64,000 nucleotides of DNA from Planctomycetota bacterium (GTDB lineage Bacteria > Planctomycetota > JAJSAM01 > JAJVHW01), in assembly GCA_021776825.1 (NCBI GenBank), contig JAJFFG010000050.1, forward strand, positions 124,001 through 188,000, written 5' to 3'. The notes beneath the pieces were generated by a model. The model did no database searches, was not told the DNA's origin, and saw nothing but the letters and a program-made list of their open reading frames with translations. The translations under genes were made by a program, and so were the position numbers. This document shows positions 3 to 9,417 of this stretch, piece after piece (position 1 is the first letter of the stretch; the number at the start of each line of letters is the position of its first letter).

Positions 3-44
3 CGTGCCGCGTTCGAGGCATTGCTCGAGGAGGCCCCCCGTTGA
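3..44 (+). CDS. C-terminal end of an upstream gene (partial)
   Basis: The third frame is open from the window edge and ends at a TGA at 42-44, giving the tail RAAFEALLEEAPR. The stop overlaps the TTG start of the next gene (TTGA), the same coupled arrangement seen for many gene pairs in this window. Too little is visible to name the product. Confidence 0.4.
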   Translation, partial: RAAFEALLEEAPR

Positions 45-1237
45 CCAGATCAGCTCTCGTTCTCATGGTGCTCGGCGTCGGTGCGGTGGCGCTCGCGATC
101 GTCGGGGCCGGAGAGGATGCACTCCTGACCGGCGAAGCGGCGGTTGCGGCGGCGTCGGACGCCCCCCGGTCCACCAGCCAGCCGGAGACGCCCAAGAGCT
201 GCGCCGGGTGTCATCGCACCCGGCAGCCGGGTCTTCTCGCCCAATGGGACGAGAGCGCCCACGCCGAGGAGGGAGTGCGCTGCGAGGAGTGCCACGGCGA
301 CGATCACGACGAGATCTTCGCGGCCGCCGGCCGCGTTCCGGCCGAGCGTTGTCGGCCGTGCCACGAGGACCAGACCGAGCAGTTCCTGGCGAGCGTGCAC
401 GCCGCGGCCTCCGGACATGCTCAGGCGAACGGCCGGCTGCTCGCACAGATTCCCGCCATGCAGCGACTGGGTTGCATGGGATGCCACGACATGGGCGGAG
501 GCGAGGAGGGGGCGTGCAACGGGTGCCACAGTGCCCACACCGCGTCCGCTGCCGAGGCGCGCCGTCCGGAGGCTTGCGGCACGTGTCACATGGGCCCCGA
601 TCATCCGCACATCGAGGCGTGGGAGGCGTCGCCGCACGGCATCGCGTATCGCGCTAGTGGAGGCGATGAACGACAGGCGCCGAACTGCGTCACCTGTCAC
701 ATGCCGCGAGGGACGCACGACGTCTCGTCGGGAATCACGATCGGCCGATCCGGCTCGGGTGCGGTCTTCGAGGACGAGACACCGCCCATCCCGATGCACA
801 CGATCACCAGGGAGCACGCGGAGACCGAGCGCGCGCGGATGCTCGAACGCTGCACGCGCTGCCACACGCCGCGCGTGGCGCGAACGGCACTCGAGGACGC
901 CGACGCGATCAAGCGCGAAGCCGATCGCCTCCTGGGCCACGCGGCCGACATCGTGCGCGGTCTGTACGACGATGAGCTACTGGACCCGATGCCGGCGGAC
1001 CGAGCGGCGCACCCGACACGCGGGCATCGCCTGGTCCTCGGTGGGCCGCAGCTCTACGAGAACCAGTCCGACGCCGAGCGCATCTTCTTCGACCTCATGA
1101 AGTTCGCCCACTCGATCACGTTCAAGAGTGCGTACCACCAAGCCGCCGACCACACGCACTGGCTCGGGATGGCGCGTCTGAAGGCCGACATCGTGGAACT
1201 CGAGGCCGAGGCCCGTCGCCTCCGCAAGGCCCGCTGA
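41..1237 (+). CDS. Octahaem cytochrome c of the hydroxylamine oxidoreductase (HAO) family
   Basis: A 398-residue protein with an N-terminal hydrophobic export segment (residues 5-23) and eight CxxCH haem sites at about C54, C81, C104, C145, C159, C179, C216 and C271. The spacing, the SPHG segment near 197 and the C-terminal YH...THW segment resemble the HAO/octahaem reductase family, which oxidises hydroxylamine or hydrazine, or runs in reverse on nitrite, in the periplasm. It is shorter than classical HAO (about 550 residues). The start is TTG at 41, supported by GAGGAGG at 27-33. Whether the Tyr that cross-links the P460 haem is present cannot be decided by eye, so direction and substrate are open. 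It is convergent with a second 8-haem cytochrome, and the two probably serve one electron-transfer pathway (inference). Confidence 0.75.
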   Translation: MTRSALVLMVLGVGAVALAIVGAGEDALLTGEAAVAAASDAPRSTSQPETPKSCAGCHRTRQPGLLAQWDESAHAEEGVRCEECHGDDHDEIFAAAGRVPAERCRPCHEDQTEQFLASVHAAASGHAQANGRLLAQIPAMQRLGCMGCHDMGGGEEGACNGCHSAHTASAAEARRPEACGTCHMGPDHPHIEAWEASPHGIAYRASGGDERQAPNCVTCHMPRGTHDVSSGITIGRSGSGAVFEDETPPIPMHTITREHAETERARMLERCTRCHTPRVARTALEDADAIKREADRLLGHAADIVRGLYDDELLDPMPADRAAHPTRGHRLVLGGPQLYENQSDAERIFFDLMKFAHSITFKSAYHQAADHTHWLGMARLKADIVELEAEARRLRKAR

Positions 1238-1247
1238 GAGCTCAGCC

Positions 1248-3197
1248 CTACTCGCGCCGGATCTGTTCGCGAAGACGCTCGACCTGACGTCGCACGGAGT
1301 GCGCGAAGGGGTCGAGTGCGAGCATGCGCTCGTACGCCGCGAGGGCTCCGCGCCGATCGCCGGCGAGCGAGCGCGCCGCGCCGAGTCGGAACCAGCGCAG
1401 GTTGTCGTCGGGCAGGACGACCGCCTCGGACTCGAGCACCGGGAGAATCGCCGCAAGGAGGGCTCGGTTCTCGCGGACACGCGTCCAGCCGGAGAGCGAC
1501 GCACGCGCCGCGGCGAAGCGGACGGTGGGAGCGTCGTCGTTCAGCGCGCGGAGGAGGACGGCGTCAGCGCGTCCAGCCGGCAACGACGCCAGCGCGGTCA
1601 CGGCGTTGCGACGAACGAGTAGGTCCGGGTCGTCGACGGCGGCGAGGATCGCGTCGCCACCCTCCTCCGGGAAGCGAGCGAGCAGGCGCACCGCCGATGC
1701 GCGCACCTCCCGGGGCACGGCGTCGTCGCGGAGCACGCTCACCAGGGCTTGCGGGGCACCCGGTTCACCGAGACGACCCGAGGCGATCGCATCCATCCAC
1801 GGTTCGGCGGCGAGAGGGTTCGGCCACCACGTGGCGTAGGCGTCGCGGACACGCTCCGGAGAGAGCGGCGACGCGCCCGGCGGTGCGTTGATCCCGCCCG
1901 AGTGGCACCATGTGCAGGCGTCCTGCGCGACGCGGTCGCCACGTGCTTCGGGACGCGGCACGCTGATGCTGTGGTCGGCGACGGCGCCGTGTCCGCGTTC
2001 GATGGCGAGGAACGGCATGTGGCACGCCACGCACGTTGCACCAGATCCCTCGGCGAGGTGGTGAGTGTGGGCGGGCACGTCCGCGGCGACGTCACGGTGA
2101 CAGCGAACGCAGAGGTCGCCTGAAGACGGCTCCGCGCGCAGTTGCGACCGCACGGCTCCGCCATGGGGTTCGTGGCAGTCGCGACAGGTCAGCCCGCCTT
2201 CGTTCGCGCAGCGACTGACGGCGAACGGGAGACCGTCGTAGATCAGTTCCAGTGGCCGTCCGGCCGGGTCGACGCGTTCGGGATCGAGCAGGAGCGTCGG
2301 GTCGAGGTGTTCGTAGAGGTCGCGATCCGGTTCGAACGTGGCACTCACCACCTCACCTTCCATGTGGCAGCGCGCACAGACGGCAGTCGCTGCCGCACGC
2401 GGGAGCTTCTCGAGACGCGGGAGTGCGGCGTCCTGCGCATCGGGATCCAGGTCGCGCCAGGCGATGGTGTGGGCGAGCCCAGGTCCGTGGCACTCTTCGC
2501 AGTCGATGGCCAAGGCCCGCCAGGACGAACGGCGCCCGTGCTCTGTGGAGTCGCGCTCGACGGACTGCCACCCCGACGTGTGACAGCGGCTGCAGCGCGC
2601 GTCCCACGACCGGACAGCGCCCGTCCAGAACGACGCCTCGCCGGGCGCGACTGCCGGAGGCGTGTCCCAGTCCCCGTTCGCGTTTCCGAACAGGAGGTGC
2701 GTGTAGTCGAACCAACGGTTCGTCGGCGCCTCGAGCATCGCCGGCAGTACCTGCATCCGTCCGTCAGGCAAGGTGGCGACGAACATGCGGATCCGCATGC
2801 GACCGACGACGTGCGTCAGGTCGTAGTCGGTCGGCATGCCGTCCGGCCCGACCGTCTCGGCGACGTAGCCAGCACCGTCCCGCCGGAACGTCGTCGAGCT
2901 GGGAGCGTGCGCGACCGTTGCTCCCTGAACGACCTCGGCGGGCATGTTGGCGTCCGTCGCGCGTTCGAACGAGCGCGCATGCGACGAACTCGACCAGGCG
3001 TCGAACTCCTTGCGGTGACACTCCGCGCACGCGGCGGTACCGACGAATGGGGCGCGGACGGCGGTCTGCGGCGGGCCATCGCGATCTTGACCGTATGCGA
3101 CGGCAGACAGCACGATCGCAGCGGCCAGGCCGGCGACACCGAAGGTCAGACCGATGGCCGTGCGCGAGCGTGCCACGGGTCGATCCGCGAGCGTCAT
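1248..3197 (-). CDS. Membrane-anchored 8-haem cytochrome c with HEAT and TPR tail
   Basis: 649 residues. A single TM or signal segment (about 14-34) is followed by eight CxxCH sites (CAEC, CSRC, CEEC, CARC, CRDC, CVRC, CVAC and CTWC, each followed by H), so up to eight covalent haems facing the periplasm. After residue about 450 come HEAT-like repeats (VPREVRASAVRLLARF, LLVRRNAVTALASL and similar), and the last 50 residues look like one TPR. Haem domain plus HEAT plus TPR is a known layout of secreted multihaem cytochromes in Planctomycetota and Acidobacteriota. I chose the ATG at 3197. The same frame stays open to 3659, but that part overlaps the opposite-strand OsmC gene and is low-complexity arginine-rich sequence. 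GTG at 3206 is an alternative. The exact redox partner is unknown. Confidence 0.8.
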   Translation of the reverse strand: MTLADRPVARSRTAIGLTFGVAGLAAAIVLSAVAYGQDRDGPPQTAVRAPFVGTAACAECHRKEFDAWSSSSHARSFERATDANMPAEVVQGATVAHAPSSTTFRRDGAGYVAETVGPDGMPTDYDLTHVVGRMRIRMFVATLPDGRMQVLPAMLEAPTNRWFDYTHLLFGNANGDWDTPPAVAPGEASFWTGAVRSWDARCSRCHTSGWQSVERDSTEHGRRSSWRALAIDCEECHGPGLAHTIAWRDLDPDAQDAALPRLEKLPRAAATAVCARCHMEGEVVSATFEPDRDLYEHLDPTLLLDPERVDPAGRPLELIYDGLPFAVSRCANEGGLTCRDCHEPHGGAVRSQLRAEPSSGDLCVRCHRDVAADVPAHTHHLAEGSGATCVACHMPFLAIERGHGAVADHSISVPRPEARGDRVAQDACTWCHSGGINAPPGASPLSPERVRDAYATWWPNPLAAEPWMDAIASGRLGEPGAPQALVSVLRDDAVPREVRASAVRLLARFPEEGGDAILAAVDDPDLLVRRNAVTALASLPAGRADAVLLRALNDDAPTVRFAAARASLSGWTRVRENRALLAAILPVLESEAVVLPDDNLRWFRLGAARSLAGDRRGALAAYERMLALDPFAHSVRRQVERLREQIRRE

Positions 3198-3302
3198 CGG
3201 ACTCACGGTAGGGGACCGGGAGTTGGGTCGCCGTGACAGATGTCGCACGCGCAGTGGGTCGTCCGCATGGAACCGGATACGCTCGTCCGTCGGAGGTGCG
3301 CG

Positions 3303-3710
3303 ATGGTCGAGATCACGGGAGCCTACGAGGGCGGGCTGCGTTGTCGCGCGCGGCACGGACCGTCCGGCGCGGAACAGATCACGGATGCGCCGGTCGACAA
3401 CCACGGGCAGGGCCGCAGCTTCTCTCCGACGGACCTGGTCGCGACAGCGCTCGGGACATGCGTCGTAACGGTGATGGGCATCGTGGCCGAGCGCCACGGT
3501 GTCGACATCGTGGGCACCACGTTCTGTGTGACGAAGGAGATGGTGGCCGATCCCAAGCGCCGCATTGGACGACTCGCGCTCACCGTGTCGCTCCCGGCGC
3601 ACGTTCGGGAGGAGAAGCGCCCGTTGCTGGAGCGCGCGGCGCACACGTGCCCCGTGCATCAGAGCCTCGGCGAGCGCGTCGACGCACCGATCGAGTTCAT
3701 CTACGGGTGA
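3303..3710 (+). CDS. OsmC/YhfA-family peroxiredoxin-like protein
   Basis: 135 residues, the usual OsmC length. Both family cysteines are present: C53 in ALGTCVVTV at the start of the central helix and C116 in HTCPVHQSL. In characterised OsmC/Ohr proteins such a pair reduces organic hydroperoxides; the YhfA-like branch is less well understood. The start at 3303 is set by GGAGG at 3292-3296, six bases upstream. An in-frame ATG at 3240 would add 21 residues without a ribosome site. The stop overlaps the GTG of the next gene by four bases, so the two are probably co-transcribed. Cytosolic; no signal peptide. Confidence 0.85.
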   Translation: MVEITGAYEGGLRCRARHGPSGAEQITDAPVDNHGQGRSFSPTDLVATALGTCVVTVMGIVAERHGVDIVGTTFCVTKEMVADPKRRIGRLALTVSLPAHVREEKRPLLERAAHTCPVHQSLGERVDAPIEFIYG

Positions 3711-4271: not shown

Positions 4272-5225
4272 TCAGCGCAGCTCCCGAAGACGTTCGGTCG
4301 CGACCGGGAACAGGTCGACGCCCCCGCGCACGATGAGTTTCTCGGCTGCGTCGCGGACCCACGGGCTCTCGTGCGTGAGATCCGCGGCGAGCGCTGTGTC
4401 GTCGGGCACGCCAGCCTTCCACGGCAGCGATGCGTCGTGCAGCATCTTCACCGCGAGTTTCTCCAGTGCGGCGTCGTCTCCCACGTCGTTCGCACGAAAC
4501 ATCAGGAACGGTGAGAGCGGGAACACATTCACGTTCGCGAAGCTCTCATCGGTGGACGGATCGTAGGCCGCGTAGATCTCGAGAAGTCCGGGGCTCGAAC
4601 CATACTCGACGAGGATGAGCCCGGCTGGCGACACGCACAGCCCAGTCGGAGACCGCGGCGACGACCCGGCAGGAACCAGTAGGCGTACAAACTGACGTGG
4701 TGAGCCGAATCGCGCGGCGGACACCACGTCGAGTTCGAGCGACCACGCGCTGTCGTCGACGACGCGGCAGAGGCGCAGCGTCTTGCCCTGCATGAACGAG
4801 TAGATGGCGAGCCGGTAGCGTCCGCCGTCGGCGACCGTCAACTCGGGCCGCACGGTCTCCGCGCCCTCGCCGAACACGATCCACGTGCCCCCGCAACACA
4901 TGGCGACGCAGGCGAACGCCGGTCCGCATGCGAGCACGAAGAGCCGACCGAACGATCCCCGGTGACGCAGGAACCCGATGAACCAGACGACGAGTGCTGC
5001 CCCGACGCCGCTCCACGCCAACGCGCGAGGAAGCCAGCCGTAGATGACGATTCGGTCGTCGGTGATGGTCCTGCTCAGCGCTCCGAGCAGAGTCCAGACG
5101 GACAGCGGAGTCAGCACGGCGGATGTGGCGAGGATCAGCCAGCCCCGGAGCTCTGTGCGTTGGGCCGCGGACTCGTCGGGGAGATCGGCCGGTGTGCTCA
5201 GCGTGCCGTCCTGAGTCGAGCTCAC
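4272..5225 (-). CDS. Two-TM hypothetical protein with HEAT-like C-terminus
   Basis: 317 residues. GTG start at 5225 overlaps the stop of the upstream gene (GTGA). Two or three TM segments lie between residues 30 and 110 (WLILATSAVLTPLSVWTLL; ALAWSGVGAALVVWFIGFL; LFVLACGPAFACVAMCCGG), followed by a beta-rich domain. The last 40 residues (ESPWVRDAAEKLIVRGGVDLFP) look like a single HEAT helix pair. A very similar tail ends the gene at 8476-9417, so the two are probably distant paralogues on either side of the repeat protein and the selenoprotein. No known family assigned. Confidence 0.6.
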   Translation of the reverse strand: MSSTQDGTLSTPADLPDESAAQRTELRGWLILATSAVLTPLSVWTLLGALSRTITDDRIVIYGWLPRALAWSGVGAALVVWFIGFLRHRGSFGRLFVLACGPAFACVAMCCGGTWIVFGEGAETVRPELTVADGGRYRLAIYSFMQGKTLRLCRVVDDSAWSLELDVVSAARFGSPRQFVRLLVPAGSSPRSPTGLCVSPAGLILVEYGSSPGLLEIYAAYDPSTDESFANVNVFPLSPFLMFRANDVGDDAALEKLAVKMLHDASLPWKAGVPDDTALAADLTHESPWVRDAAEKLIVRGGVDLFPVATERLRELR

Positions 5226-7843
5226 TTCGTCACCACGTCCCCGGGTCCCAGGTCCACGTCGACGCGTTCGCCAGCGCGGACCGTGACACGGCGCACCATC
5301 TCCGCATCGGGGCCGATGTAGCCGATCTCGAGCGGTCCCGTCGGGAGACCGTCGAGGACGACGACGCGATCGAACGGTTCCGAGTCGGCCTGCTCCGCTG
5401 TCGACGGCTCCCAGACATGGCCGCCCGCTACCGTGCGCACGGCGACGCGTCCGTCGAAGTCGTCGACGCCGTCGAAGTCGATCCGCAGACGCACCGACCC
5501 GGCGACGCCCAACTCGACGTGGTGTGCCCGGCCGAGACTCGCTCGATCGACGCGCCGGATCGCCGCGCCGTACCCGTTCCGTCGCGCAAGGAGCCACCCC
5601 GAGAAATCGCTCGGAACGTCGGCTGCGAAGGACCCGTCGGGATGGGACACGGAGCCGCCCGCGATGTCGGTGTCCGCGAAGAGCTGAATGCGCACCCCGC
5701 CGATGGGCCGGCCGGCACCATCACTCACGCTCCCGCGAAGCGTCGCATCGGGAGGGAGTTCGATGCGCCCGAGGTCGTGGTCCACGACGGCCGGGAGGAC
5801 GACCCGCCTCTCCACGGCTCGTCGACCGCGCACATACACACGCAGGGTCGCGGGTCCCGCGGCGAGGGTGCGCTCGACGACGAAGCGACCGTCGGGCCGG
5901 ACGCGTCGGGTCGTCCACCCGCGTGAGGCAGGTGGCGTGTCGGAACGCACCCAAACCTGCACGCCGTCGAGCTCCTTGGTGCCGCCGACGATCCGACCGT
6001 GCACGCCGACGCTCGGATGAAGCGCGATCGTCAACGTGTCAGCGCGCTCGCGATCGAGCCGGACGGTCGCCCGGGCGTAGCCTGATGCAGCCGCGTCGAT
6101 CTCCGCTCGGCGACTGCGGTCGACGTAGACGTGATGGGTGTGGTTCCCGTCCGAGCCGTCTCGCCGTGACGTCCTCTGTCCTCGTCCTCTGACCGAGCTT
6201 TCCACGCCCTCCGGCAGCGGCTGACCGTCCGGCCCGACGAGATGAACCGTCAGAAGCGACGGGCGGGGCAGTGCAACAGCGTGGACGGTCACACCAGCTT
6301 CGGAGTCCGTGACGAACGTGCCGCGCACGAGGACCCGCGCTCCGTCCACGTGCGCGGCGGCGCTGAGGTCAGTCTCGGTACCGGGCGCAGCCAGGAGCTC
6401 GACGTCGAGCCTGTCTCCCGCTTCGCCGACCTCGTCGTCGTTCAGCAGAAGCCGACCGTACGCCCGCAGGTTCGAGAGCTCGGTGTCGTCCGGAGCGCGA
6501 AGCCGCAGCGAGATCCACGAGCGTGGAGACTTCGCCAGAGTGATTTCCACGTCTTCGTGCGACGCCCCCTCGGCGACATCGAGCGTGACCGCGCCGGTGT
6601 ACGCGTCGCTGGCCATGGGTTGCGATGGTGGGGGACCCGAGTACCGCGCGGGGCGCTCCGGGATCCACGCGACGAGTTGGTACCGACCGGGTAGGACGTC
6701 CTCGAAGTCGAACGTGCCGCCGTGGACGACGCGCAAGCGATCGCCGTCGCGGCGCAGCACGATGGAGGCCTCGAACGCGTCTTCGCCGTCGGCATGCGTG
6801 ACCCGCCCGGCGATACGCGCGCCACGCCCAAGACGGACCACGACGTCGCGATCGCCACCGCGTGCGCTGCCCGTCCACACTGGGAACCCAGCCGCGCTCA
6901 CCTGGAGCGTCTTGACGCCGTGCTCGCGTACCGGATGCAATCGGAAGCGGCCCTTGTCGTCGGTTCTCTGCACGGGGACGAGACGCTGATTTGAATCGAC
7001 GCGCGCGGCAGCGACCGGCTGCCCGGCTCCGTCGACCACGCGTCCGGAGATCGCGTAGGACGGGACGAGCCTCACGCGTTGTGCGTCGACTGGCGGAACC
7101 TCCGGAACGACCTGCAGTCCCGTCACGACGTTCGGCGCGAACCCGGGCGCTCTGAAGAGGAGGTGGTCGCCCGCGCCGACCCGAACGCGAATGTGCCCAT
7201 CCGCGTCGGCGGACTTCGTGAGCCACGGCGGACCCTCCAGGTCCTCCTCGTACACGAGGACCTCGCCGCCCCCGATCTCGCGGCCCCACTCGTCAACCAC
7301 GGCGAACTCGCGTTCGGGTCGCTGCCAGACGGCCAGCTCGACGTCCGCGAGCCCCCCGACGGCGACCTCGATCGGTTCCACGTCGCCCGCGCACCCCTCG
7401 GCCGCCGTCATGGCCCAGTACGCGCCCGGCGCGACCGGCGCGGTCTCAAAGCGTCCTTCGCTGTCCGTCTGCGCCCAGACCACGGGAGGCGAGGCGACTG
7501 CGAGCACCTCGGACTCGTCGTCCTCCGCGATCGTGCGGACGTGCAGCGACACGCGGGCACCGGCTCGTGGCTCGACGCTCTCCGCCTCCTCGACGATGCC
7601 GCTCACCGGACCCCACTCGGCGCGGCCGACCACCGACTCGGTCGGCGGCGCGTGCCGACGCGGCGCGACGCGCGGATCGTCGATCGAGCCCGCGTCGAGC
7701 ACCTCGGCAGCAGCGCTTCGATCGTGGGGCGAAACGTCGGGCGGCTCCGCGCCGGGCCACGCCAGCCAGACTGCGAACGCGAGGAGGGCGATCGTTGGCG
7801 GGAGGAGCAGACGCAGGCGCACCGGCCCATCATCACCGATCAC
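5222..7843 (-). CDS. Large membrane-anchored protein with carboxypeptidase-regulatory-like beta-sandwich repeats
   Basis: About 873 residues. An N-terminal TM helix (LRLLLPPTIALLAFAVWLAW) is followed by a Pro/Arg-rich linker and then at least six domains of about 90 residues carrying the signature of carboxypeptidase regulatory-like/PEGA folds: DxxGRF or DGSF turns followed by a basic strand (TDSEGRFETAPVAPG, DDKGRFRLHPV, DGRFVVERTLAAG, HPDGSFAADVP). Such proteins are usually cell-surface or periplasmic scaffolds. Start choice is uncertain: GTG at 7843 is used here and GTG at 7822 is equally possible; neither has a clear ribosome site. The frame remains open further upstream but would overlap the divergent selenoprotein gene. 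Confidence 0.7.
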   Translation of the reverse strand: MIGDDGPVRLRLLLPPTIALLAFAVWLAWPGAEPPDVSPHDRSAAAEVLDAGSIDDPRVAPRRHAPPTESVVGRAEWGPVSGIVEEAESVEPRAGARVSLHVRTIAEDDESEVLAVASPPVVWAQTDSEGRFETAPVAPGAYWAMTAAEGCAGDVEPIEVAVGGLADVELAVWQRPEREFAVVDEWGREIGGGEVLVYEEDLEGPPWLTKSADADGHIRVRVGAGDHLLFRAPGFAPNVVTGLQVVPEVPPVDAQRVRLVPSYAISGRVVDGAGQPVAAARVDSNQRLVPVQRTDDKGRFRLHPVREHGVKTLQVSAAGFPVWTGSARGGDRDVVVRLGRGARIAGRVTHADGEDAFEASIVLRRDGDRLRVVHGGTFDFEDVLPGRYQLVAWIPERPARYSGPPPSQPMASDAYTGAVTLDVAEGASHEDVEITLAKSPRSWISLRLRAPDDTELSNLRAYGRLLLNDDEVGEAGDRLDVELLAAPGTETDLSAAAHVDGARVLVRGTFVTDSEAGVTVHAVALPRPSLLTVHLVGPDGQPLPEGVESSVRGRGQRTSRRDGSDGNHTHHVYVDRSRRAEIDAAASGYARATVRLDRERADTLTIALHPSVGVHGRIVGGTKELDGVQVWVRSDTPPASRGWTTRRVRPDGRFVVERTLAAGPATLRVYVRGRRAVERRVVLPAVVDHDLGRIELPPDATLRGSVSDGAGRPIGGVRIQLFADTDIAGGSVSHPDGSFAADVPSDFSGWLLARRNGYGAAIRRVDRASLGRAHHVELGVAGSVRLRIDFDGVDDFDGRVAVRTVAGGHVWEPSTAEQADSEPFDRVVVLDGLPTGPLEIGYIGPDAEMVRRVTVRAGERVDVDLGPGDVVTK

Positions 7844-7973
7844 GGTCGCTGCTGCGCGGCACCGCCTTGCTCTCGTGTCATCGCAGCTCGACCTCGGTGG
7901 CTTCGCTCGGAGCGCCGTCTCGGTAGACTGGGCGGGCTGGTTCTTGTGCGCTCGTGCGAAGCAGGAGGTGTCG

Positions 7974-8483
7974 ATGCGCTTGCAACGTGTGTGGTCTCTG
8001 GCTGTGGTCGGTGCGGCGTTCCTGGGGGCGTGTGGCGAGTCTCCGGCGCCGGCTCCCGCGGAAGACGACGTCGAGGAGGCGGCGGGGCCCTCGGCCCGTG
8101 ACGATGCGTTCGCGCGCATCAGCGCAGCGATCACCGCGCGCGGGGCCGCCGGCGCGGCCGCCGCTCGGGAGGCCGGTCAGCCGGCGCTGCTCCTCTTTGC
8201 CGCCAGTTGGTGAGGCGCCACGCGAGCCAAGGTCGGTGCGACCTTGAACGACGGGACCGCGCTGGCGGCCATCGAGCCTCACTTCACTCCCGTGTTCGTG
8301 GAGAAGGACGACGAGGCCGACCTCATCGCCCAGTACGGCATCGACTACTACCCCGCGTTCGTCTGGACGGATGGCGACGGGGAGGAACTGCTCCGCACGG
8401 TGCAGCCGGAGACGCCGCAGGAGCTGATCGATGCGCTCGAGTCCGCGCAAGAGGAGCTGATCGCCGCCGCGTCGGATGAGTGA
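7974..8483 (+). CDS. Thioredoxin-like lipoprotein, predicted selenoprotein (TGA at 8211 read as Sec80)
   Basis: Start ATG at 7974 with AGGAGG at 7963-7968. The first 79 codons give a lipoprotein signal (FLGAC, C20) and the beginning of a thioredoxin fold, LLLFAASW, where a thioredoxin would continue with Cys-x-x-Cys. The next codon is TGA (8211-8213), and the same frame continues as GATR and then a thioredoxin C-half (VFVEKDDEADLIAQYGI, the cis-Pro region YYPAFVW, helix QELIDALESA) to a TGA at 8481-8483. Reading TGA as selenocysteine restores a 169-residue protein with a U-G-A-T redox motif. A perfect 8-bp hairpin starts 14 bases after the TGA (separate entry). A nonsense mutation or sequencing error is the alternative, but the hairpin at the correct distance argues strongly against it. 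Predicted to act as a periplasmic thiol/selenol oxidoreductase. Confidence 0.82.
8228..8246 (+). promoter_or_regulatory. Bacterial SECIS-like hairpin
   Basis: Perfect stem CAAGGTCG / CGACCTTG enclosing the loop GTG (8236-8238). The apical loop begins 22 bases after the TGA at 8211-8213. Bacterial SECIS elements lie inside the coding sequence with the loop roughly 16-37 bases after the UGA and a G among the first loop bases; both conditions hold. If the top G-C pair opens, the loop becomes GGTGC. Confidence 0.8.
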
Positions 8484-9417
8484 TAGGGCGCCGCGCGCAA
8501 CGTCGAGCCGAGCCGGCCTGATCGTCTGCGCGGGCGCGCTGCTCTGGCTGGGCGTCGCAGCGTTGGGCGTGCGGTCCTTCCTGACGTTCGACATCGACCT
8601 TGGCGGTGATGGGCACCGAGTCGTCAGTCAGCTTCCGGTTCCCGACGATCTCGCGCGCGCGGCGCTCGCAGCAGGCCACGAAGGAAGCTGGATCGCCGTG
8701 AAGGACGCCGGAGCGGGGCTGCTGTTCACGACGCACGCTGAGACGGGGACCTCGTCCGCCACCGTTCTCGAGTCCACCCAGCGACTGAAGCTCGGCCAGG
8801 ACTGGTACGTGCGTGCGCAGCGCTTCATTCCCAGGGGCCATCGCGTCCATGCGGTCGTCCAACTGGAGGCCGAGGTCGGTGAGTGGACTCTCTTCCGGGT
8901 GCACGCCGTCCGGTCTACGTCGTATCGCCGCGACGCAGCGCCCGTCCTGACACGGTTCCCGCGTCGAGGGCGCGTCGAGTCCGTCGGCTCGGGTGCCGCC
9001 GACGGCGGCCGACACGGCGGTCTTCTCATTGCGCGGACATTGAGTGGGATTGTGGCGGGGCGAGACGACGTTGAGTCCTCCGAGGGCTGGCTCCTGATCT
9101 GGGACTCCGTCGGACGGCGCGCCCTCTGGTCGGATGCGACGGACCCGACGACGCGCGTCTCGTTCTTGGCCCTCCTGGGCGACGACGGCGAGGTCGATCC
9201 GGACGACTTGGACTGTCTCGCCGATCGAGTGCGCGGGGCGCCCGTGCGCAATGCTGCCGAACGGCGGATGCTCCCCGCCGAGAGCGAGCTCCTGGCAGCG
9301 CTGGACGACCCACGCAAGTCCGTCCGAGCGGCCGCGGCACGCGTGATCGAGGCTGGAGGCGAGGCGTTCTACCCGTTGGGCGTCCGCGAGCTGGCGCGAC
9401 GCGCCGAAGCCCGCTGA
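8476..9417 (+). CDS. Membrane-anchored hypothetical protein with HEAT-like C-terminus
   Basis: 313 residues. The ATG at 8476 overlaps the end of the selenoprotein gene by eight bases (ATGAGTGA), indicating coupled translation. A single TM helix lies at residues 14-37 (LIVCAGALLWLGVAALGVRSFL), followed by a mostly beta extracytoplasmic region. The end (LLAALDDPRKSVRAAAARVIEAGGEAFYPLG) is a HEAT-like helix pair strongly resembling the tail of the protein at 4272-5225. No catalytic motif recognised. Co-translation suggests it works with the selenoprotein. Confidence 0.65.
   Translation: MSDRAPRATSSRAGLIVCAGALLWLGVAALGVRSFLTFDIDLGGDGHRVVSQLPVPDDLARAALAAGHEGSWIAVKDAGAGLLFTTHAETGTSSATVLESTQRLKLGQDWYVRAQRFIPRGHRVHAVVQLEAEVGEWTLFRVHAVRSTSYRRDAAPVLTRFPRRGRVESVGSGAADGGRHGGLLIARTLSGIVAGRDDVESSEGWLLIWDSVGRRALWSDATDPTTRVSFLALLGDDGEVDPDDLDCLADRVRGAPVRNAAERRMLPAESELLAALDDPRKSVRAAAARVIEAGGEAFYPLGVRELARRAEAR

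Follow-up and report, generated by a model that had tools for sequence, protein, structure and literature searches.

A predicted selenoprotein of a Planctomycetota bacterium with a thioredoxin fold and no resolving cysteine

Selenoproteins were reported in Planctomycetes in 2016, in two strains (PMC4807772), and a search for which most subscription papers lay out of reach found no mention of Planctomycetes in the selenoproteome reviews consulted. The U-x-x-T motif, where U is selenocysteine (Sec), has been described in glutathione peroxidase and in OsmC-like proteins (PMC1088965), as well as in the VPGUxxT and UXX-star families, and the Trx7/PDZ family is given as CxxU with one Sec in a 2026 review (PMC13188914). 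Here we describe a gene that very probably encodes a thioredoxin-like selenoprotein, with Sec at UGA 8211 as the best explanation of an in-frame stop codon. It lies in a 64,000-nucleotide stretch of DNA, hereafter the window, from a draft Planctomycetota genome (6.9 Mb in 133 contigs, 93.6% complete).

The frame (Table 1) translates as MRLQRVWSLAVVGAAFLGAC...LLLFAASW-U-GATRAKVGATLNDG...YYPAFVWTDG...AASDE-stop, and the TGA at 8211-8213 is its sole internal stop from the ATG at 7974. An earlier reading of the sequence alone had placed this TGA where a thioredoxin has its first active-site Cys (FAASW-U-GAT) and had proposed that the frame continues into the C-terminal half of a thioredoxin. Our results agree on both points. 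Residue 80 is in frame, and TGA stands at the aligned codon in the orthologues. The coding pattern persists beyond the TGA (GC3 0.90), with GC by codon position at 0.72/0.42/0.90 on its 3' side vs 0.80/0.66/0.80 on its 5' side, and the post-TGA part alone matched the orthologue from genome G003 with 44% identity over 72 aa (E=5e-13).

Table 1. Features at the predicted selenoprotein locus and further predicted Sec genes of the host genome.
Feature	Position	Strand	Basis or remark
Shine-Dalgarno-like AGGAGG	7963..7968	+	5 nt 5' of ATG; sequence GAAGCAGGAGGTGTCGATG
Predicted selenoprotein gene	7974..8483	+	Translation; predicted Sec = residue 80; ordinary TGA stop 8481-8483
In-frame TGA, predicted Sec codon, motif W-U-G-A-T	8211..8213	+	Aligned TGA in orthologues; Sec machinery in genome
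SECIS-like hairpin, 8 bp, GTG loop	8228..8246	+	Folding, synonymous recoding, covariation
Downstream gene, predicted membrane protein with weak HEAT-like tail	8476..9417	+	ORF list; 8-nt overlap with 7974-8483
W-U-T-F-C lipoprotein	C104, host genome		In-frame TGA
W-U-G-Y-C protein	C12, host genome		In-frame TGA
Tandem R-U-x-x-U proteins	C107 (L098), C13 (L099), host genome		Two in-frame TGA three codons apart
U-P-P-C proteins	C61, C5, host genome		In-frame TGA
U-S-N-C at end of DsbD-like protein	C56:50872-51147 (L102), host genome		Pfam DsbD_N, DsbD_TM, Thioredoxin_7

The protein is laid out as a putative signal peptide with a lipobox, a low-complexity linker and a thioredoxin-like domain at about residues 39-168. 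Signal peptide and lipobox were assigned by eye, the latter as FLGAC (Cys20) in the window protein and as VFAGC and LTAAC in the orthologues. Pfam Thioredoxin_7, Thioredoxin and Thioredoxin_2 matched with E=6e-5 to 4e-4, just under their curated cut-offs, and the window protein matched no NCBIfam model over cut-off. AlphaFold2 modelled the domain with a pLDDT of mostly 93-97, against about 50 for the signal and the linker, and Foldseek matched the model to solved thioredoxins with a probability of 1.00. Pro127, at the thioredoxin cis-Pro position, is invariant. Thus modelled, the protein has a thioredoxin fold with the cis-Pro position and a nucleophile at the start of the active-site helix. 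The second active-site Cys of thioredoxin is missing; Thr83 takes its place here, and Ser or Asn in the orthologues.

When 392 planctomycetote genomes were searched with a profile, the family was found in three of them, the window genome, G003 and G005, with matches at about 267-269 bits; the next best match scored 66.6 bits. The G003 orthologue (L019/L053) comes from the same family of bacteria as the window genome but another genus, and the G005 orthologue (L018) from the same order but another family. Their identity to the window protein is 43% and 36%, respectively, and in each the aligned codon is TGA. The active-site motifs of the three members are W-U-G-A-T, W-U-T-T-N and W-U-G-V-S, so that the first position is read as Sec in 3/3 and the resolving position is never Cys (3/3). 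All three genomes are drafts, and the named records are Planctomycetota metagenome assemblies. The next relatives (L021, L035, L044 and L058) are U-x-x-C proteins that keep the TGA, three of them lipoproteins by eye. The sequence-only reading had proposed that homologues be aligned to see U or C at this position; beyond the two orthologues, farther homologues have TGA or, mostly, Cys there, the exceptions being L029 and L086, two remote relatives whose active site differs. No family member with Cys turned up that would show a Cys/Sec exchange within the family itself, and a scan of genome contigs with Cys-containing patterns returned only the two known orthologues. Two further candidate readings among the matches were rejected: a TAG in the G052 match L024 lies near the match end, beyond a regular C-V-P-C site, and is a plain stop codon, not a UAG read as Sec, and the TGA codons in L023 and L042 are ordinary stops 3' of the domain.

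In the tree, the three proteins without a resolving Cys group together as a clade with support of 100/99, whose sister is the U-x-x-C group (90/68); the bootstrap of this tree had not fully converged. Since nearly all other relatives are x-x-C, the simplest reading is that the resolving Cys was lost in the family clade. The three members appear as a small new selenoprotein family for which there is no NCBIfam model.

The sequence-only reading had also pointed to a hairpin whose GTG loop follows 22 bases after the TGA, and this was confirmed. The hairpin, CAAGGTCG-GTG-CGACCTTG, has a perfect stem and a 3-nt loop at 8236-8238, separated by those 22 bases from TGA 8211-8213, and it spans +18 to +36 counted from the T of the TGA. 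Such a hairpin is rarer than expected by chance: on both strands of the window, only 10/1094 TGA triplets are followed within 42 nt by a perfect 8-bp stem with a 3-8 nt loop. Dinucleotide shuffling of a 56-nt stretch gave no signal (z=0.46), a control that is uninformative because GC-rich DNA folds well anyway; synonymous recoding and covariation took its place as tests of the hairpin. Synonymous recoding of the same peptide reached the energy of the window hairpin in 0.4% of trials (p=0.004), and the values for the three family members were 0.004, 0.0007 and 0.011. For the U-x-x-C relatives L021, L035 and L058 the fixed-window energy test alone was not significant (0.29-0.38). Nine loci combined gave p=6e-8, a value that overstates the case since the loci are related.

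Covariation was assessed on nine class-level loci in a gap-free alignment from the TGA. The hairpin pairs 18-36 to 25-29 were paired in 77.8% of cells, vs 34.7-54.2% with slid partners, and 5/8 pairs changed on both sides; the covariation score was 0.285 vs 0.142 in shuffles, with 0/500 shuffles as high. In the orthologues pairing is kept through compensating changes, and their hairpins are more stable than synonymous recoding gives. Furthermore, G26 and T27 of the loop, counted from the T of the TGA, are invariant in the nine loci. A loop G and U are the SelB contacts of the E. coli fdhF element, where they lie one codon nearer the UGA. No Rfam SECIS match was found over the window at gathering scores, or over six loci at a permissive threshold; given the diversity of SECIS elements in bacteria, this result was not counted against a SECIS function.

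A search of the genome for selA, selB, selC and selD, which the sequence-only reading had put forward as a check, found all four. The tRNA-Sec scored 68 bits (ARAGORN anticodon tca), SelA 493 bits, SelD 388 bits and SelB, which is full length, 326 bits, each over its curated cut-off. SelA is encoded in 9/9 genomes of the class examined. The SelD gene (L048:1501-2427) has its own in-frame TGA, SHGGG-U-ACKIP, at the known Sec site of SelD. By its sequence the protein is a Sec-type selenophosphate synthetase, and SelD is therefore a second, independent predicted Sec gene in the host genome.

The UGA at the Cys/Sec position of homologues, the hairpin with its conserved loop and the presence of selA, selB, selC and selD together argue for Sec at UGA 8211, and on the machinery, the conserved TGA and the covarying hairpin the earlier proposal of a selenoprotein gains support. 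Two other accounts of the TGA were weighed. That it is a nonsense mutation or sequencing error in an ordinary Cys thioredoxin-like lipoprotein would fit a draft assembly in 133 contigs and a gene that most annotation pipelines would split; the same TGA, however, stands at the same residue in two genomes of another genus and another family at 36-43% identity, which already refutes this account, and the coding pattern beyond the TGA, the covarying hairpin and the full Sec machinery leave it hardly any probability. It is similarly very improbable that UGA is reassigned or suppressed as another residue, such as Trp, or passed by generic leaky read-through, given that the same gene ends at the TGA at 8481 and other genes also end at TGA, that thioredoxins have their catalytic Cys at this site, as do most distant homologues, and that tRNA-Sec, SelA, SelB and a Sec-type SelD are encoded.

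The sequence-only reading had further described a lipoprotein co-translated with a HEAT-tailed membrane protein as a redox module. In its own genome the downstream gene is probably co-transcribed with the selenoprotein gene, and co-translation is plausible because the two overlap by 8 nt. The Pfam HEAT_EZ match of the downstream gene is weak (E=0.05) and under the Pfam cut-off. No homologue of the downstream gene or of the upstream gene was found beside the two orthologues (loci L065 and L066). We therefore dropped the operon as a functional clue, and a conserved redox module is not supported beyond the window genome. A plasmid search gave no match. Two proteins near the locus, those of 4272-5300 (-) and 8476-9414 (+), resemble each other, as judged by eye, in a C-terminal HEAT-like tail (a membrane protein plus a short helical tail). 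Elsewhere in the window, the region 41-3710 holds two convergent multihaem cytochrome c genes, 41-1237 (+) and about 1248-3170 (-), of which the second carries HEAT repeats; an OsmC-like gene comes next, at 3240-3710 (+).

Nine class genomes were searched with Thioredoxin_7 and the loci were then read for in-frame TGA, which revealed many more in-frame TGA codons at active-site positions. For the host genome this gives a minimum of nine predicted Sec genes with eleven predicted Sec codons, the window gene and SelD included, in a search limited to thioredoxin-like proteins and SelD. U-x-x-U was found in Thioredoxin_7 proteins at six loci in four genomes (L098, L099, L103, L104, L106 and L107), and one of them, the C107 protein of the host genome (L098), exceeds the cut-off for the known Trx7/PDZ family NF041199. 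At several U-x-x-U loci both TGA codons appear to be followed by a hairpin each. A Sec-containing DsbD-like reductase with a C-terminal thioredoxin domain, G-U-x-N-C, seems to be present in 5/9 class genomes (L102, L105, L108, L109 and L113). L115 (G008) and L117 (G007) belong to a separate Thioredoxin_7 group with D-D-U-G-V-A, a further example of a predicted Sec without a resolving Cys that seems to be independent of the window family.

By analogy with what is established for Sec decoding in bacteria, hairpin-bound SelB would deliver Sec-tRNA-Sec to UGA 8211, and translation lacking this delivery would stop after a 79-residue stub. The full product is predicted to be exported and lipid-anchored, with its thioredoxin domain outside the cytoplasmic membrane. 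In the mature domain the selenol would stand alone as a redox residue, since Thr replaces the usual resolving Cys (Ser/Asn in the orthologues); L018 has two further Cys in its mature domain, and 'Sec alone' thus holds strictly for just the window protein and L019. In a one-selenol chemistry, attack by Sec on a disulfide, a sulfenic acid or a peroxide would leave a Se-S or Se-OH state for an outside thiol to resolve, while the polar Thr, Ser or Asn would hydrogen-bond the selenolate. Plausible candidates for reducing the protein in the same genome are the U-x-x-C thioredoxin-like proteins encoded there and the DsbD-like membrane reductase with its predicted Sec. We tentatively suggest, as a possibility we would not favour at present, that the extracytoplasmic thiol-redox network of this class of Planctomycetota is based largely on selenium, with electrons passing from the DsbD-like reductase to exported U-x-x-C/U-x-x-U thioredoxin-like proteins, with the one-selenol lipoprotein of the window as a terminal effector lacking a resolving Cys.

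Sequence cannot decide between a protein disulfide and a peroxide as the substrate. A Sec peroxidase, in which the single selenol reduces peroxides with outside thiols and not protein disulfides, concerns the substrate and leaves Sec itself in place; U-x-x-T is the motif of glutathione peroxidase (PMC1088965, PMC13188914), and selenenic acid chemistry at a selenol without a resolving Cys needs an external thiol only. Still, no glutathione-peroxidase Pfam match appeared at E up to 1, the protein is related to thioredoxin-like proteins of U-x-x-C/C-x-x-C type, and the third position varies (T/N/S), unlike a fixed peroxidase motif, so we consider a peroxidase rather unlikely. Less likely again is a protein that is no redox catalyst, whose Sec binds a soft metal or traps an electrophile (e.g. 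Hg, Cu). A lone exported selenol would, from general chemistry, bind such ions strongly, but no conserved neighbour of any kind, and hence no metal-handling partner, lies beside the orthologues, and the invariant Pro127 keeps the thioredoxin cis-Pro that is expected for thiol-exchange substrates.

The locus would be a natural case of a thioredoxin-fold protein that kept Sec and lost its resolving Cys, and a comparison of its U-x-x-T form with U-x-x-C and C-x-x-T forms would test directly why Sec is needed. It is predicted to be a selenoprotein family that current models miss, with no NCBIfam match over cut-off and a gene that annotation would split into two fragments, and it draws attention to a class of planctomycetes, absent from the selenoproteome reviews consulted, for which many exported selenoproteins of thioredoxin-like type are predicted.

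Among known systems, glutathione peroxidase (PF00255) has the U-x-x-T spacing in common with the window protein, which lacks a match to that family (Pfam, E up to 1). The VPGUxxT family (NF041382/NF041383) shares both a thioredoxin-like nature and U-x-x-T, whereas the window protein scores 11.5 bits against a cut-off of 275 and has the context W-U-G-A-T, not V-P-G-U. Its best NCBIfam match is the C-terminal thioredoxin-like part of TsoB, a rhodanese/DsbD fusion-like selenoprotein (NF045694), at 19.5 bits against a cut-off of 805, and it has neither the rhodanese nor the DsbD membrane part. The Trx7/PDZ domain-containing (seleno)protein (NF041199) is a Thioredoxin_7 selenoprotein represented in the same genome by the paralogue L098 (306 bits, cut-off 300); the window protein differs in having no PDZ domain and one predicted Sec, where L098 has tandem U-x-x-U. 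Finally, compared with the Sec thioredoxin-like U-x-x-C proteins (thioredoxin, PF00085; thiol:disulfide interchange protein, PF13098), the window family has no resolving Cys in 3/3 members (T/N/S), a predicted lipid anchor and scores just under the Pfam cut-offs, but the window protein is like them in its fold, in its predicted Sec in place of the first active-site Cys and in the hairpin right after the UGA.
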